64,000 nt of DNA from an uncultured Paraprevotella sp. (GTDB taxonomy: Bacteria > Bacteroidota > Bacteroidia > Bacteroidales > Bacteroidaceae), in the NCBI GenBank assembly GCA_944321345.1, contig CALUKY010000006.1, forward strand, positions 46,606 to 110,605, read 5' to 3'. The position numbers and the translations under genes are program-made. The notes under the pieces are model-generated. The model was not told where the DNA came from, searched no databases, and was given only the letters and a program-made list of their open reading frames with translations. Shown piece after piece: positions 10,653 through 63,908 of the stretch (positions are counted from its first letter, which is position 1; each line of letters opens with the position of its first letter).

Positions 10653-12551
10653 ATGCTACCCAATAATAGAATAAAATATCTGTGTCTGCTTTCTCTGATC
10701 CCCATTCACATGGCCGGGCAGGAAAACAAAGACTCCATCCGTTCCAGACATCTGGATGCGGTAGTAATAACCGGAGCACGAAACGAAACCGACGTGCGTC
10801 ATCTGTCGCAAACTGTTTCCGTAATCAACCGGAAACAGATTGAAGAGGCCATGCAGCCCTCTCTGCTACCGACATTGAACGAACAGGTTCCGGGATTGTT
10901 TGTCACATCGCGCGGCATTTTGGGCTATGGCGTATCAAACGGAGCAGCCGGGAACATTTCTTTGCGCGGCCTGAGCGGTAGTTCCGGCCGTATGATGGTT
11001 CTGATAGACGGACATCCGCAATATGCCGGAATCTTCGGACATCCCATTTCGGATGCTTACCAGTCATTCCTTGCCGAACGGGTGGAAGTATTGCGCGGAC
11101 CGGCTTCGGTTCTCTATGGCTCGAATGCCATGGGTGGCGTGATCAATATCGTTACCCGAAAGATGCCGCAGGACGGAATCAGAACGCAACTTCGTGCAGG
11201 ATACGGCTCCTACAATACTTTGGAAACAGAAGCCACAAACCGTGTGCGTAAAGGGCGCTTCACAAGTGTGGTGTCCGCTTCGTACAACCGTACGGACGGT
11301 CATCGTGCCGATATGGAATTTGAACAATACGGAGGATACGCCAAACTGGGCTATGAAATGACACCACACTGGAATCTGCGCGGAGATGTCAACCTAACCC
11401 ATTTCAACGCCTCCTATCCCGGTCCGACTGATGCTCCACTGGTGGATGGCGACCAACGTATCACTCGGGGAATAACTTCCGGAGCTGTGGAAAACCATTA
11501 TGAAAGGACCTCCGGAGCTGTAAGCTTTTTCTACAACTGGGGCAACCACTGGATTAATGACGGGTACACTCCCAGCCAGGGTGAGGGACCACAGGATGAC
11601 CGTTTCCGTTCATTCGACAACATGATGGGGCTGTCTTTATACCAAAGTATGCAATGCTTTGCCGGAAACCGCATAACGGTGGGATTTGATTGGTTCCGCT
11701 ATGGCGGACACGCATGGAGCCAATATGTCAGCGGGGACAGGAACGGCACCCGGTCTGATCTGGTAGACAAACACGAAAACGAACTGGCGGGATATATGGA
11801 TTTGCGCCAGGATCTGGCCCGATGGATCACCCTGAATGCCGGACTCCGTGCCGATCATCATTCCCGTATCGGCACAGAATGGGTTCCGCAAGCGGGCATG
11901 GCCTTTCATCTGCCTCATGACATAGAACTGAAGGCATCAGCTACCAAGGGCTTCCGCTATCCCATTCTACGGGAAATGTATATGTTTCCTCCGCAAAACC
12001 CGGACCTGAAACCGGAATCCATGTGGAACTACGAACTGGCTTTTTCCCAACAGTTGTTTCACGGCAGACTGTCCTACGGAATCAACCTGTTCTACATAGA
12101 CGGCAAAAATCTGATACAGACACTGCCCAATCCGAATGGAAGCGGTATGCTAAACCAAAACTCCGGAACTTTCAAAAATACAGGGGTGGAAATACAGACC
12201 TCATGGCACATCAACAGACACTGGTCGGCCGATGCCAACTACAGCTATCTGCACCTGAAAAATCCGATTGTAGCGGCTCCCGAGCATAAGTTATACGCAG
12301 GAGGCAACTTCACACAAGGACGCTGGCATGCCGCAACCGGCATACAATATATAGCAGGACTCTATACCAGTGTATCTCCTGTCAGAACGGAGCATTTCGT
12401 GCATTGGAACCTGACCGCCTCTTTCCGTCTCACCAACTGGTTCAACATTTATATGCGCGGCGAGAACCTGCTGGCTCAGGAATACGAAATCAATGCGGGT
12501 TATCCCATGCCACGTGCTACGGTAAGCGCCGGCTTCAATATACAAATCTGA
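10653..12551 (+). CDS. TonB-dependent outer-membrane receptor
   Basis: A 632-residue receptor with an N-terminal signal peptide, a plug domain (LDAVVITGARNETDVRHLS, later GNISLRGLSG and LRGPASVLYGSNAMGGVINI) and a 22-strand barrel ending in aromatic-terminated strands (FNIQI). The size matches siderophore/cobalamin/metal receptors rather than ~1000-residue SusC proteins, and no SusD partner follows. The next two genes encode lipoproteins, a DUF362 protein and a cyclophilin-like protein, likely in the same operon. Ligand unknown; iron, haem, corrinoid or another metal chelate is plausible. Confidence 0.92.
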   Translation: MLPNNRIKYLCLLSLIPIHMAGQENKDSIRSRHLDAVVITGARNETDVRHLSQTVSVINRKQIEEAMQPSLLPTLNEQVPGLFVTSRGILGYGVSNGAAGNISLRGLSGSSGRMMVLIDGHPQYAGIFGHPISDAYQSFLAERVEVLRGPASVLYGSNAMGGVINIVTRKMPQDGIRTQLRAGYGSYNTLETEATNRVRKGRFTSVVSASYNRTDGHRADMEFEQYGGYAKLGYEMTPHWNLRGDVNLTHFNASYPGPTDAPLVDGDQRITRGITSGAVENHYERTSGAVSFFYNWGNHWINDGYTPSQGEGPQDDRFRSFDNMMGLSLYQSMQCFAGNRITVGFDWFRYGGHAWSQYVSGDRNGTRSDLVDKHENELAGYMDLRQDLARWITLNAGLRADHHSRIGTEWVPQAGMAFHLPHDIELKASATKGFRYPILREMYMFPPQNPDLKPESMWNYELAFSQQLFHGRLSYGINLFYIDGKNLIQTLPNPNGSGMLNQNSGTFKNTGVEIQTSWHINRHWSADANYSYLHLKNPIVAAPEHKLYAGGNFTQGRWHAATGIQYIAGLYTSVSPVRTEHFVHWNLTASFRLTNWFNIYMRGENLLAQEYEINAGYPMPRATVSAGFNIQI

Positions 12552-59383: not shown

Positions 59384-59611
59384 AGAGTATATCCATTATT
59401 GAAAAATCCTATCCGGACTTTATTTCTCAGAATCTGCCATTTCGTAGATTGGCTCTTACAGAAAACAAAAAAGTACGGGCATCAAAACATAATGTGATAT
59501 TTGGGGGTTAAGACAATGCTGTATGACGGCTTGCGTATCAATGAGTTACGAAAATAGGTGGGTATCCCCAAAAAAAAACGAAATGTGACATAACGCTACA
59601 TCAGTGTTACA

Positions 59612-59640
59612 TCTAAACGGTCTAAACGATATTCTAAACG
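59612..59640 (+). repeat. Three TCTAAACG direct repeats
   Basis: TCTAAACG occurs at 59612, 59621 and 59633; the inverted element GTTTAG recurs at 59723 and 59735. The pattern resembles recombinase or repressor binding sites near the element border. Confidence 0.6.
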
Positions 59641-59674
59641 GCATTAATGCGACATAAGAGTAATAAACGTGTAA

Positions 59675-59715
59675 AAGGGGCTATAATAGGCATTTACGGC
59701 TTGTTATAGCCCCTT
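59675..59715 (+). terminator. 12-bp perfect hairpin
   Basis: Arms 59675-59686 and 59704-59715 are perfectly complementary around a 17-nt loop. The following T content is modest, so it may be a terminator or another structural signal. Confidence 0.6.
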
Positions 59716-59790
59716 ATTCAGTGTTTAGGTAACTGTTTAGACGGCTTTTTAGACATGCCTAGATAGGAAAAAAACAAAAGGTTATTAAAG

Positions 59791-60073
59791 TGTTAAAAAT
59801 GAGTTGGGCATACCCTTTGGGCATACCTTTGGACATACCCCCGATTAAGCGCCTTTGAAGTGCCCTTGCTTCATATTATAAAAGTTGGGCATACCTTTTT
59901 AACCGTTTTTTTGTGCGGTTTGTTATGAGGTATTTCCGCTTGAATGGTGTTTTGTGTGGTTTTTCATGTGATTTAAGGGGGGATAGTACGTTATAACATT
60001 TGTCCTTTATTCATCTATTTAGTTGATTATTATAGATTTATACAGATTGTCGTATTAAAATTGTGTGTGTGCG
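59791..60073 (+). repeat. 283-bp direct repeat, copy A (GGGCATACC type)
   Basis: By eye roughly 80-85% identical over its length to copy B at 60235-60517. It contains GGGCATACC three times and GGACATACC once, an AACCG/CGGTT hairpin and a CCGC/GTGG hairpin followed by T-runs, then an AT-rich end finishing in a GTGTGTG tract. Confidence 0.85.
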
Positions 60074-60188
60074 TTGTTTTTTATACTCAAAAGAATCTAT
60101 GTAAGTATAGTTTAGATCATTATATATTGCCATAAAGTGTACAGATTACTACTGTATATTATTTGTTATTTATTTGATTATGTTTACA

Positions 60189-60196
60189 TATATTTG
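60189..60196 (+). promoter_or_regulatory. -7-like box before repeat copy B
   Basis: TATATTTG is a perfect TAnnTTTG match; a TTTG lies 23 nt upstream (60162-60165). A transcript from here would cross copy B, which has terminator-like hairpins. Confidence 0.4.
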
Positions 60197-60234
60197 CATA
60201 AAATTATACCATAGGACGAATAGAATAAATTTAA

Positions 60235-60517
60235 TGTTAAAAAAAAGTTGGGGATACCCTTTGGGGATACCTTTGGGGATACCCCCCTATTAAGTGTTCT
60301 TAAGCGCCATTACTTCGTATCATAAAAGTTGGGGATACCTTTTTAACTGTTTTTTTGTGCGGTTTGTTATGTGGTATTTCCGCTTGAATGGTGTTTTAGG
60401 CGGTTTTTTGTGTGATTTAAAGGGGGATAATACGTTATATCATTTATTTTTTAGGTTTATATTTAGTTGATTATTACAGATTTACATAGATTGTCGCATT
60501 AAAAATGTGTGTGTCGC
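60235..60517 (+). repeat. 283-bp direct repeat, copy B (GGGGATACC type)
   Basis: Same length and order of elements as copy A, 444 bp downstream. All four internal motifs read GGGGATACC instead of GGGCATACC or GGACATACC. The hairpin AACTG/CGGTT keeps pairing by a G-U pair, and CCGC/GCGG followed by TTTTTT is a fair terminator. Confidence 0.85.
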
Positions 60518-60634
60518 TTCTTAAATAATAAAAGAAATATAGTAAATTTCTTTAGTGTGATTGATTTACAAACCAAAAAAGGAAAGCCCGGAAGAATAAT
60601 TCCTCCGGGCTTCTGTTTCTTATTTGTTAGCATA

Positions 60635-60850
60635 CTATTCCGATGACTTACAGCATTCACGTAGGCTTTCCAGTAGAAAACGTACGTTGTAGACATCATT
60701 AATAATTTCATCATTACTACCGCCTCCTGTAGGGTCTAGGTAACTGATTGTAGCGGTAAAGAGCACATGATCTAACGAGGTGGCTAATTCCTCAGGGGTG
60801 CACGTACAGAAAAGTTTCTCTATTTCTTTCATATTGCAGTTTGGCTTCAT
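60635..60850 (-). CDS. Small phage-region protein, unknown
   Basis: A 71-residue acidic protein (MKPNCNMKEIEKLFCTCTPE, YLDPTGGGSNDEIINDVYNV, ending LRECCKSSE). No family recognised. It begins 3 nt after the stop of the 78-residue gene, so the two are co-translated. An internal ATG (60832) could be the true start. The helical, small, cysteine-containing character is common in phage early or accessory genes. Confidence 0.5.
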   Translation of the reverse strand: MKPNCNMKEIEKLFCTCTPEELATSLDHVLFTATISYLDPTGGGSNDEIINDVYNVRFLLESLRECCKSSE

Positions 60851-60853
60851 GGT

Positions 60854-61090
60854 TTATCCCTCCTGTCCGTTTAGTTTAACCTCTGTTCTGTATTCTGTAG
60901 TTTGACTGATCTTTATCTTTAAAGCATCAGACATAAAGCTATAAACTACAAGAACAAAAGCCTGAATAGAATCATAATACAGACTTCTTAGGTTGTTAGT
61001 CTGTTCCTGTTCCTCTGCTCCAGAACTACTTAATAACTCAAAATCTCGGATTGTGTCTGCAAGGAGTACAGACAAAGCATTTTTTTTCAT
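60854..61090 (-). CDS. Small helical phage-region protein, unknown
   Basis: A 78-residue protein (MKKNALSVLLADTIRDFELL, then an acidic loop, LYYDSIQAFVLVVYSFMSDA, and a basic end). Start chosen at 61090; the frame is open to 61108. It is preceded on its strand by a promoter and a structured leader with a terminator-like hairpin (61112-61184), so its expression may be attenuated. First gene of a two-gene minus-strand unit in the element. No family recognised. Confidence 0.5.
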   Translation of the reverse strand: MKKNALSVLLADTIRDFELLSSSGAEEQEQTNNLRSLYYDSIQAFVLVVYSFMSDALKIKISQTTEYRTEVKLNGQEG

Positions 61091-61111
61091 AATTAAAAAA
61101 GAAAACAAAAA

Positions 61112-61184
61112 GCCCCTTTGTTACGGTGTCCTACACGATGATAAAACGTGCGTGGCCGTTTCCAGTACCACCACCGACAAAGGG
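61112..61184 (-). ncRNA. Structured leader RNA with terminator-like base stem
   Basis: On the minus strand a base stem (9 bp CCCCTTTGT/ACAAAGGGG plus 5 bp CGGTG/CACCG after a 2-nt bulge) encloses two hairpins, GTGG/CCAC and CACG/CGTG. The base stem is followed by CTTTTTGTTTTC. This three-way-junction shape with a T-run lies between a promoter and the 78-residue gene, as expected of an attenuator, riboswitch-like element or small RNA. I do not recognise the family. Confidence 0.55.
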
Positions 61185-61238
61185 GTATAATAATATTTTC
61201 TTTTCTCAAAATCATATATTTATCATTTTTAGGATATG

Positions 61239-61269
61239 CAAAAGTAGGCATTAAATTTATACGAAGCAA
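61239..61269 (-). promoter_or_regulatory. Promoter of the leader RNA and small-gene unit
   Basis: On the minus strand TTG (61267-61269), a 20-nt spacer and the perfect -7 box TACTTTTG (61239-61246). The predicted start is about 45 nt before the structured RNA. Confidence 0.65.
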
Positions 61270-61370
61270 GAAAAATGCTGTTTTTATGTTTATGAAGAAT
61301 CTCAAAACGCTGATAAACAGGATATAACTATATGATAATAGAAACTATCCCCCCAAAAAAAAGTATGTAA

Positions 61371-61437
61371 TAGTTACACACTTTTATGTAACGGTTACAC
61401 ACTTTTTTGTGAAACGGTTACATAGATTTTATATTTG
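61371..61437 (+). promoter_or_regulatory. Operator-rich promoter of the capsid operon
   Basis: TTTG (61406-61409), a 20-nt spacer and TATATTTG (61430-61437) form a full promoter 19 nt before the protease ATG. Around it are two GTTACACACTTTT repeats and the palindrome TGTAACGGTTACA, followed by another GGTTACA. Sites overlapping the -33 region suggest repressor control. Confidence 0.65.
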
Positions 61438-61455
61438 CAGAAAAACCTAAAGGCA

Positions 61456-62439
61456 ATGAAAAAAAATAGTTTTATAGTATCAGATGAATCAAAAAACTGT
61501 TACGGGATGGTTGTTAAAACGGACGGAATCAATCTGGAAGCGTTTCGGAAAAATCCTGTAATGTTATACATGCACGAACGGAAAACGGTTGTAGGTAGAT
61601 GGGAAAACTTGAGAGTTGAAGACTCAAAACTGCTTGCAGACGCTGTTTTTGACGATACAACAGAGTTAGGAAAAAATGTAAAGGCACAAGTAGAAAAAGG
61701 TTTCTTGCGCTCTGCTTCGATAGGAATTGAAATCGTAAACGAACAAGAAATAAACGGTGTAAGGACTGTTACAGAAAGTGTTCTTACTGAAATTTCCATA
61801 GTAGACATACCAGGGAATAAAAACGCTGTTAAATTACGCTATTCAGGCGGAAATGTATATTTAAGACTTGAAACTCCACACAAAATTAAGAGCCTGAGAA
61901 ATGAGCTGATCAGCCTCCTACAATTGGATGCCAAAGCAACGGATGAAGATATAATAAACCACATTCAGGAGTTATTAAATCATCCGGATCAGGCGACAAT
62001 AGATGTAGAAAACGCTATCAGTAATGGATTGATAAACGCAGAAGAACGTTATAACTTTATAAGTCTGGCAAGGGTTAGCCCGTCCGTATTCAATCGTTTT
62101 ATTGACGGAGAGAAAAAAAAGAATGAAACCAGTATAGAACACGTTTTAAACAAGGCTTTCAAGGATGGAAGATTGAAATATACCCAACAAAAGGATGTGT
62201 ATCGAAAAATCGGTCTTAAAATGGGTTTAGACGTACTTTCTGAGTTGTTGGATACCGTTGCAATAGTCAAACCATCAGACATTCTTAAAATGGCACGGGG
62301 TACGACTTCCTCCAATCAACAAGAAAATGAAATTCCGACAGATCCGGTTGAAAAGCTGAGATATTACAGGAAATATAAACCTGAATATCTAAAGGAACAC
62401 CCGGAAGTATATGAACAACTACTTAAAGCATTAAAATAA
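61456..62439 (+). CDS. Phage prohead (head maturation) protease
   Basis: 327 residues from the ATG at 61456. The first ~140 residues carry the HK97-type prohead protease core (FRKNPVMLYMHERKTVVGRW, KGFLRSASIGIEIV, LTEISIVDIPGNKNAVKLRY). The C-terminal half is helical, probably a scaffold-like or linker region removed in maturation. It lies 7 nt before the capsid gene. No portal or terminase gene precedes it: the upstream neighbour is a promoter and then minus-strand small genes, unusual for a phage head operon. Confidence 0.82.
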   Translation: MKKNSFIVSDESKNCYGMVVKTDGINLEAFRKNPVMLYMHERKTVVGRWENLRVEDSKLLADAVFDDTTELGKNVKAQVEKGFLRSASIGIEIVNEQEINGVRTVTESVLTEISIVDIPGNKNAVKLRYSGGNVYLRLETPHKIKSLRNELISLLQLDAKATDEDIINHIQELLNHPDQATIDVENAISNGLINAEERYNFISLARVSPSVFNRFIDGEKKKNETSIEHVLNKAFKDGRLKYTQQKDVYRKIGLKMGLDVLSELLDTVAIVKPSDILKMARGTTSSNQQENEIPTDPVEKLRYYRKYKPEYLKEHPEVYEQLLKALK

Positions 62440-62446
62440 AATCAAC

Positions 62447-63442
62447 ATGGCATTAAACAAACAAATTTGGGTAAGTCAATTAAAAGAGAATTTTTACCCT
62501 GAAAGAAACTTCTTAACTAAGGTTACAGATTTTACAGATGATGTTGATGCAAATACACTGCATATAGCATCAGCCGGAATAGATCCAAAAGTTCTGATCA
62601 ATAACAAAACCTATCCGATAAAAGTAATTGAACGTGAGGATCAGGATAACCAGATACCGCTAGATACGTTTGATACAGAAAATACCGTTGTGCGGCATAT
62701 CGAGGAAGCGGAATACAGTTACGGCAAACTTGAAAGCGTGATCAGACAACACCGACTAACGCTCCAGACAAGCACTGCACAAAAGGCAATCCATGCTTTT
62801 GCACCTCTGAACGATACACCCGACACACCCATAGTAGAAACAACAGGTGAAGTTGTCAACGGCAGAAAAAGAATGAAGTTTGCAGATATACTCACATTGA
62901 AAGAGAAATTTGATAATGCGCTGGTTCCGCTCAACGACAGATATATAGTTCTTCATCCTACTCATGTAACAGATCTTATGCTGGAGGATTTACAGCTGTT
63001 TAAGGATCTTACAGAAATCCGTGATGGAGAACCGATTAAATTTGCCGGATTTGGTACCTTTCAATTTCCTTATATGCCTAAATATTCAAGAACAGGACCG
63101 GAAGATCCGCTTACTAAGTCTGATTTCAATGTAGAAAGCAAGAATGCGTCAATAGTCAGTGTTGCATTCCAAAAGTATGAAGTAATGAAAGCAGACGGTA
63201 CACTGGATATGTTTTCACGTTTAGATGATCCGGAAGAACGTGGCAGTATTATAGGCTTCCAAAAACGCTTTATTGCTATGCCTATCAGAAATAAGGGAAT
63301 CGGGGCTATTGTTAGTGTGGATGAATCACAAAACACCAGCGCTGCACCTTTGAAAACTCAAAAAAGCATGATGCAAAACGAGACTTTAAACAAGACCCTT
63401 TCAGAAAGCAAAGAAGACGATGAACAAGGCGAATTAGAATAA
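62447..63442 (+). CDS. Phage major capsid protein
   Basis: 331 residues. The N-terminus (ALNKQIWVSQLKENFYPERN, FLTKVTDFTDDV) and the order of beta segments (IHAFAPLNDTP, DRYIVLHPTHVTDLMLED, FAGFGTFQFPYMPKYSR, FQKRFIAMPIRNKGIGAIVS) fit HK97-fold major capsid proteins of Bacteroidetes phages. The C-terminal ~40 residues are an acidic tail (LSESKEDDEQGELE). Directly after the protease gene, as in tailed-phage head modules. Confidence 0.8.
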   Translation: MALNKQIWVSQLKENFYPERNFLTKVTDFTDDVDANTLHIASAGIDPKVLINNKTYPIKVIEREDQDNQIPLDTFDTENTVVRHIEEAEYSYGKLESVIRQHRLTLQTSTAQKAIHAFAPLNDTPDTPIVETTGEVVNGRKRMKFADILTLKEKFDNALVPLNDRYIVLHPTHVTDLMLEDLQLFKDLTEIRDGEPIKFAGFGTFQFPYMPKYSRTGPEDPLTKSDFNVESKNASIVSVAFQKYEVMKADGTLDMFSRLDDPEERGSIIGFQKRFIAMPIRNKGIGAIVSVDESQNTSAAPLKTQKSMMQNETLNKTLSESKEDDEQGELE

Positions 63443-63462
63443 ACAAAATATTAATCGGATAA

Positions 63463-63708
63463 ATGAATAAGACAGAATTACCACTAAGAATAGGACTTAG
63501 TTACAAGTTCAGGCTATATTATGTTATGCAAACCTTGGATAAATATGCAAAATCAGGGCTTTCAAACCGTGAAGTTTATCGTAAGTACATTTATCCGGTT
63601 TTGGGTATTAGCGAAAAAACAATGTATAACATGATTAATAACTCGTGTAAGGAGAAATATCAGCTGACAGAAACAGAAAAGCATTATTTCAAGCAATCAT
63701 TGCTGTAG
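63463..63708 (+). CDS. Small HTH-like protein of the capsid operon
   Basis: An 81-residue basic protein. The stretch SNREVYRKYIYPVLGISEKT followed by MYNMIN reads like a helix-turn-helix, so DNA binding is plausible. It lies 20 nt after the capsid gene as the last gene of the three-gene unit, where a phage would normally carry head-tail connector genes. It could be a regulator or packaging-associated protein; family not recognised. Confidence 0.55.
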   Translation: MNKTELPLRIGLSYKFRLYYVMQTLDKYAKSGLSNREVYRKYIYPVLGISEKTMYNMINNSCKEKYQLTETEKHYFKQSLL

Positions 63709-63788
63709 ATGATGGTTATGTAACGAACTGGCACGTTTAAGTGATTTTATTACTAAATGTGTCAGTTTTTATATAGTGCAAAAAAAAT

Positions 63789-63870
63789 ACAAATCGTTTT
63801 GTGTTAATGGAAATAAAGATAGGTTAATTAACAACATTTCGTTTTGCATTACAGATCACAAATCGTTTTG
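63789..63870 (+). repeat. Three iteron-like ACAAATCGTTTTG repeats
   Basis: Perfect copies at 63789-63801 and 63858-63870 and a two-mismatch copy (ACATTTCGTTTTG) at 63834-63846. Such spaced 13-bp repeats suit replication-initiator, integrase-arm or packaging sites. No gene lies between 63709 and 64000. Confidence 0.65.
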
Positions 63871-63880
63871 CGGTCTGTAA
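63849..63880. other. 32-nt extended hairpin
   Basis: The segment folds on itself with 13 of 14 pairs (TTACAGA/TCTGTAA at the base, one A-C mismatch, one G-U) and includes the third iteron in its stem. Confidence 0.55.
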
Positions 63881-63908
63881 AAGGTGATCAAAAATTTGAC
63901 CACCTTTT
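63879..63908 (+). terminator. Hairpin with T-run after the capsid operon
   Basis: A 14-nt arm (63879-63892) pairs with 63895-63908 with one mismatch. The right arm ends in TTTT, fitting a terminator, although the distance from the last gene is 170 nt. Confidence 0.5.

Follow-up and report, generated by a model that had tools for sequence, protein, structure and literature searches.

In this study, we identified two tandem 283-bp repeats, A and B, within a 4,406-bp mobile element in the 64-kb stretch of Paraprevotella DNA that was analyzed (the window), and we propose, with a probability of roughly 0.7, that they are two versions of a transposition-enhancer-like site for helper transposases, so that one satellite carries two specificities. 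The boundaries of the element, the architecture of its arrays, and the covariation between array boxes and phage transposases are direct observations on the sequences compared here.

Repeats A (59791..60073) and B (60235..60517) are direct repeats on the + strand. They are in register at a spacing of 444 bp, with identities of 88% across 59791-59842 and 86% across 59858-60070, and the twin repeats with four boxes each that the initial annotation described are therefore real. In both, boxes 1-3 follow one another at 12-13 bp intervals and box 4 sits 56 bp past box 3, all on the + strand. Module A is of the C-type: boxes A1 (59806..59814), A2 (59819..59827), and A4 (59887..59895) read GGGCATACC, and A3 (59831..59839) is the off-type GGACATACC. 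Module B is of the G-type and uniform, with GGGGATACC in B1 (60250..60258), B2 (60263..60271), B3 (60275..60283), and B4 (60331..60339). A fifth G-type box (GGGGATACC, 59561..59569, - strand), single and inverted, was absent from the earlier list and stands beside the left-end site of the element. The motif GGGSATACC occurs 10 times in the window against 0.52 occurrences expected from shuffling, and eight of the 10 fall within 59561-60339. Comparison of A with B shows differences at 44 of the 247 positions outside the boxes and at 5 of the 36 within them. Four of the five within-box differences fall on position 4, one in each box and each from C to G (P = 8.5e-5 for this placement, position 4 having been chosen only after the initial annotation had drawn attention to it). 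The concerted change noticed earlier is thus borne out, and the possibility that the motif differences are as random as the rest was checked and did not hold; random drift was rejected because the position-4 bases change together in all four boxes.

The repeats belong to a complete satellite-like element (59474..63879, + strand) with the ends 5'-TACGGGCATC...GCGGTCTGTA-3', which resemble those of phages and of two related contigs, L051 and L052. The target-site duplication AAAG is present on the left (59470..59473) and on the right (63880..63883), and the GC content is 35% in the element versus 48% in the window to its left. The left-end AAAACGAAATGTG site (59575..59587, + strand), a putative transposase end-binding site, occurs likewise in L051 and in phage C67, and as ACAAAATGTG in phage G61; AAAACGAAA / AAAACGATT sites lie at the right end (63837..63869, - strand). 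On the - strand, the element contains a 71-aa ORF (60635..60850; 59% identity across 68 aa to an ORF of G61, a G-type phage), a 78-aa ORF without convincing family match (60854..61090), and a c4-2 RNA (RF02944, 61110..61186; 55.4 bits). These are followed on the + strand by genes for a prohead protease (Peptidase_S78 / Mu-I-like, 61456..62439), a major head protein (phrog_267, 62447..63442), and an 81-aa HTH-like protein (63463..63708), with a counterpart in phages G61 and G105 (48-50% identity across 56 aa) whose gene seems to close their early operon. The sampled phages have only distant counterparts of the capsid protein and protease, with identities of about 35-37% at best. Among the ORFs of the element, we found no gene for a transposase, MuB, terminase, portal, or tail protein, nor did we see in its 4,406 bp a Rep or Par gene, either of which the initial annotation had considered as a partner. 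The host assembly (91% complete) gave no match to the transposase of contig L061, which carries G61, at E 0.001. The element is a discrete mobile element without a full replication and virion gene set of its own, which is what characterizes a phage satellite. Judging from its gene content and ends, it is most likely transposed and packaged by Mu-like phages, to which it would contribute its own protease and capsid.

There are relatives that likewise encode a protease and a capsid protein. Two of them, L053 (4,133 bp, with a GTTG duplication) and L057 (3,946 bp, with a GTTT duplication, inserted in an IS30-like transposase gene), share the same plan and are located in chromosomes; another three (L051, L052, and L054) are contigs roughly 4 kb in length. 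The L052 contig starts and stops exactly at the element ends and the L054 contig does so to within one base, as expected of an element that is present in several places or free. In L051 and L052, only one array is present, and its boxes belong to a third type, GGGTATACC; that of L051 comprises three boxes and lacks the fourth. No T-type helper for these two was found. Among 11 elements or loci scanned, an array is clear in the window and L051, possible in L056, L023, and L024, and absent from L053, L054, L055, L057, L022, and L025; with six of 11 lacking it, arrays are therefore not universal in the satellite group. Near the right side of a satellite-like element, L056 has three inverted boxes at 12-bp steps (about 12288-12320, - strand), GGGTGGACA once and GGACGGACA twice, which places two position-4 types in one series. 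L023 (1112-1144) and L024 (830-862) have GAGTTACG three times at 11-bp spacing upstream of a related protease gene, possibly a further array type. L060 matched the box pattern in a manner that looks like chance. The c4-2 RNA lies just upstream of the protease gene in five of the six elements scanned for it, namely those of the window, L053 (9553-9629), L054 (919-994), L055 (9550-9625), and L057 (9555-9630), on the - strand throughout, and was not found in the sixth, L051. In P1 and P7, c4 RNA acts on the antirepressor mRNA, and by analogy the c4-2 RNA could target the antirepressor mRNA of a helper.

A search with the box pattern led to the 37-kb contig L061, whose left end is colinear with that of the satellite. 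The phage on it, G61, is Mu-like, with a transposase (phrog_310), MuB (phrog_296), a repressor, and G-type boxes, and its relative C67 (L067) has C-type boxes. The distance from the first box to the left end is 345 bp in G61, C67, and the satellite L051, 346 bp in G105, and 332 bp in the window. The left end of the window aligns with those of C67, G105, and G61 with scores of 74, 72, and 32 (shuffle maxima -12, -4, and -16), and the left end of L051 with scores of 168, 160, and 106 (shuffles at most -6). Alignment of modules A and B with four modules from phages gives scores of 58-82 versus shuffle maxima of 10-20; the masked boxes contribute as many as 36 points to the real scores and none to the shuffles, and at least 22 points are left after subtraction. 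Percent identity is a weak discriminator (66-71% between the left end of the window and the phages, 63-65% for shuffles), and the scores alone separate clearly. A DNA similarity search of the phage collection with the repeat region returned no match, as did one with the left end of C67.

The array is present in 20 of 23 phage upstream regions, among which L061 and L104 represent one phage, L120 is near L115 and L116, L118 has only three boxes, and the array of L112 was recognized by eye; the three regions without an array come from records whose start is 3.1-3.7 kb away from the transposase. Its layout comprises three boxes about 12 bp apart and usually one or two further boxes, and many arrays surround a AAAACGAAATG site. 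The box sequence is nearly uniform inside one phage and varies among phages; the modules of G105 and C67, for example, are 83% identical outside the boxes, with G boxes in the former versus C boxes in the latter. The array is found at position 732 in hankyphage p00 and near 385 in Porphyromonas gingivalis phages with a full left end, and in G61 and the P. gingivalis phages the left end is on one side of it and the repressor gene on the other. Some further features of these phages were observed. A tRNA-like sequence follows the array module at about 11100-11017 in L061, at about 7214-7298 in L067, and at 10153-10233 in L105, and the satellite module stops right where this sequence begins in the phages; of the copies in L061, L137 (which holds the L067 stretch), and L105, that in L105 alone passes the Rfam threshold. 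In two P. gingivalis phages, Pg012 (L154, about 486) and Pg013 (L156, about 150), a TG-type array is followed by one box of another type (GGGAATAGT and GGGGATAGT, respectively), perhaps the trace of a specificity change. The early genes of G61 (L135), G105 (L125), and C67 (L138) are closely related and the head modules of G61 and G105 are very different from that of C67; TerL is 82% identical between G61 and G105 versus about 30% to C67, which indicates module exchange.

The type of the boxes follows the N-terminal winged helix of the phage transposase and not TerS or the repressor. Ten closely related transposable phages of P. gingivalis include six with G, one with C, and three with TG boxes, and nine transposase columns, all at residues 15-35, split the six G-type phages from the other four. 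The transposases of G105 and C67 are 95% identical and have the helices TYKKY (G boxes) and TYDKY (C boxes), respectively. In a covariation analysis, the information on box base 4 at residue 47 (G61 numbering) exceeds that of shuffles by 1.01 bits (n=44), compared with 0.40 bits for the next transposase column. The best columns of the other proteins reach 0.29-0.33 bits: MuB (46 sequences), the second ATPase (45), the repressor (47), TerS (16), and TerL (15). Of the six proteins scanned, the MuA-like transposase alone has a column that tracks the box strongly, and this column lies in the recognition helix. For box position 7, residue 48 ranks first; for positions 6 and 5, residues 54 and 51, respectively, rank within the first six. 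The remaining box positions, chiefly 8 and 9, point to scattered transposase columns, which probably reflect shared ancestry.

From these data, a simple rule can be formulated, in which K or R at residue 47 corresponds to G at box position 4, D to C, and other residues, mostly hydrophobic or aromatic, to T. The set from which the rule was read fits in 18 of 19 phages, p00 and x117 being near-identical, and the exception is x110 (K with T). After the rule had been formed, new phages were fetched by transposase profile, and 77 of 80 loci were examined (in L171, L186, and L217, the match or the upstream stretch was too short). An array was obtained from 35 of the 77 upstream regions, from which we dropped L216 (an unrelated tandem repeat), L160 and L162 (phages already used), L178 (near-identical to x106), and L212, L238, and L239 (residue unreadable). 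The 28 remaining phages, which are not mutually independent (e.g., L184 and L194 are near-identical in the helix), fit by majority base in 27 cases, with three of four boxes agreeing in L166 and five of six in L231. The exception, L234, combines K with two G and three T boxes. L206, L232, and L233 were re-registered by one base by hand with their residues already seen, and 24 of 25 phages fit without these three; the register chosen manually for L193, which has a run of G, is uncertain. Taken together (n=45), K or R occurs with G in 21 phages and with T in one, D with C in six, and other residues with T in 17; the association of K/R with G has a Fisher p of 5.8e-12, a value that ignores relatedness. 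These 45 are the readable residues among 50 aligned transposases (49 non-redundant; L231, L234, L212, and L239, truncated in this alignment, are absent), and the box consensus sequences were entered by hand. On a quick tree from which the first 100 residues were left out (44 rows), and which joins the long branches L218 and L226, 14 base changes and 14 residue-class changes are needed. Independent pairs number 12; on average, 11.6 of these show agreement, the remainder show no difference, and not one runs the other way (median p 0.0005). For C versus D, all four independent pairs agree, a number too small for a test.

The N-terminal domain is predicted by AlphaFold2 to fold as a winged helix (mean pLDDT 77 and 80), and residue 47 falls within its second helix. 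In Foldseek, the DNA-binding domain of Mu transposase (1tns) ranks 14 and 8 with weak values (E 0.4-0.5, TM 0.40-0.51), and MarR- and SarA-type winged helices outrank it by E-value; the likeness of the predicted fold to 1tns is suggestive only. Pfam gave no match to a Mu DNA-binding domain in the N-terminal domain, and a search with the N-terminal profile against the sequences of solved structures returned nothing relevant.

The main rival to a reading with two helpers is a succession of helpers, in which one array (B or A) is in use and the other is a drifting relic of an earlier helper. The single off-type box in A beside the uniform B would suit such a history, as would the single third-type arrays of L051 and L052. 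However, A keeps C at all four position-4 bases despite an 18% flanking difference from B, and we consider the relic unlikely, though worth keeping in mind. The arrays might also act as decoys that titrate the helper transposase and mainly hinder the helper instead of aiding transposition of the satellite. This idea draws on the number of sites, since two arrays and the fifth inverted box make nine versus about four to six per phage. It appears quite improbable with array A at nearly the phage distance from the end (332 versus 345-346 bp), as a working site would be.

A pac site read by the terminase small subunit would agree with the initiation of hankyphage packaging at the left end, as stated in the available part of PMC12135933, and with the TerS, TerL, and portal proteins of G61 and G105, both G-type, which are far more alike than they are to those of C67. 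We nevertheless rejected TerS as the reader of the boxes, and a pac site is very unlikely: TerS is 100% identical in Pg013 (TG boxes) and Pg008 (G boxes), TerS of the G-type phage G107 is 72% identical to that of C-type C67 and 35% to that of G-type G61, and the best TerS column reaches 0.32 bits in the 16 phages available. The initial annotation had proposed a sequence-specific partner with two specificities, and the evidence points that way; the packaging protein that it offered as one candidate fails on the identical TerS with different boxes. The phage repressor was likewise rejected as the reader. Its gene is near the array, and its alleles in the P. gingivalis phages show some grouping by box type, as an operator that sets immunity specificity would lead one to expect, but the repressor of G-type Pg007 is only 69% identical to that of Pg008 when those of the other G-type phages are 100% identical to it, G61 and G105 share boxes with repressors at 29% identity, G61 and C67 differ in boxes with repressors at 73%, and the best repressor column carries 0.29 bits (n=47). 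We regard an operator as very improbable. The small RNAs that had been suggested as an alternative, on the grounds of common hairpins and supported by the equal length, strand, and order of A and B, can practically be set aside: both repeats fold no better than shuffles (z = -1.43 for A and -0.23 for B). Promoter-like matches across the element are at chance level (19 versus 16.1 expected, for a sigma-70 type that does not cover Bacteroidota promoters), so that the promoter-like box noted in B by the initial annotation stays a candidate.

Our preferred reading, a pair of enhancer-like sites, has its closest precedent in Mu. According to the parts of PMC3562280 and PMC5977238 available to us, an enhancer (O1-O2) near the left end is linked to the ends by the I-alpha domain of MuA in an assembly said to guard against wrong-end pairing (PMC3562280), and this enhancer sits right of the repressor gene (PMC5977238). 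The phage array resembles it in its place near the left end, its several sites, its separation from the end-binding sites, and its apparent reading by the N-terminal winged helix of the transposase. It differs in lying left of the repressor gene, between this gene and the left end, and in consisting of direct boxes at 12-bp spacing with a phage-specific sequence. The enhancers of Mu and D108 differ in specificity.

As for satellites, cfPICIs carry an integrase together with terminase, portal, and capsid genes; no integrase, terminase, or portal gene was found in our element. Known types comprise P4-like satellites, PICI, cfPICI, PLE, and PICMI, as named in the available part of PMC11389934. 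The element shares with them its small size, capsid genes of its own, and an apparent dependence on a helper, and is distinguished by its length of about 4 kb, a protease and capsid only, phage-transposon ends, and a 4-bp target duplication. MITEs, as described in the same part of PMC11389934, have no protein-coding genes and are moved by the transposase of another element through common ends. The element resembles them in sharing its ends with phages and in being moved, presumably, by a helper transposase; unlike MITEs, it has protease and capsid ORFs and a c4-2 RNA and is presumably packaged. The published transposable phages of P. gingivalis are bounded by 4-bp repeats (PMC10367356, in part). 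They and hankyphage p00 (PMC12135933, PMC10367356) resemble the satellite in the kind of box array close to their left end and differ from it as complete phages with one specificity each; the available parts of these two papers do not mention the array.

We propose a mechanism for the two modules based on these comparisons. In the Mu-like phages of Bacteroidota, the MuA-like transposase would read a single module near the left end through its N-terminal winged helix, with the recognition helix deciding, chiefly through residue 47, which box sequence is accepted. By analogy with Mu, the phage-specific array may serve as an enhancer-like docking site through which the transposase prefers its own DNA. 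A satellite that encodes no transposase has to match the key of its helper, and tandem C-type and G-type modules would allow docking by two transposase specificities, that is, by two kinds of helper. The sampled related phages include both G-type and C-type, and the satellite has one array of each. Physical binding, enhancer function, dependence on a helper, packaging, and the present-day use of both arrays are what the sequence patterns suggest. A and B are 86% identical outside the boxes versus 70-77% between either and the phage modules; being closer to each other than to the sampled phage modules, they indicate that the second specificity arose or was converted within the satellite lineage and was not newly acquired from any of the phages sampled. 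One specificity thus stems from a duplication followed by a coordinated box change, or from conversion, in this lineage, and selection by a second helper would produce such a duplication and change.

More broadly, we lean toward the view that transposable phages of Bacteroidota possess a fast-evolving lock-and-key of recognition helix and box for self-recognition or incompatibility, governed by one main rule of residue and base, which capsid-encoding satellites of about 4 kb exploit, one of them with two keys for two helpers. Among the open-licence papers listed in literature searches, as far as titles and the openings of abstracts go, none describes a satellite of Mu-like phages, and none of those listed reports such a relation between transposase and box. 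If this view is correct, one transposase residue would predict one base of the docking site across many gut and oral phages, and the pairs of phage and element that engage in mobilization could be read from sequence. It would also tie a group of satellites to transposable phages, with one satellite keeping two helper specificities side by side.
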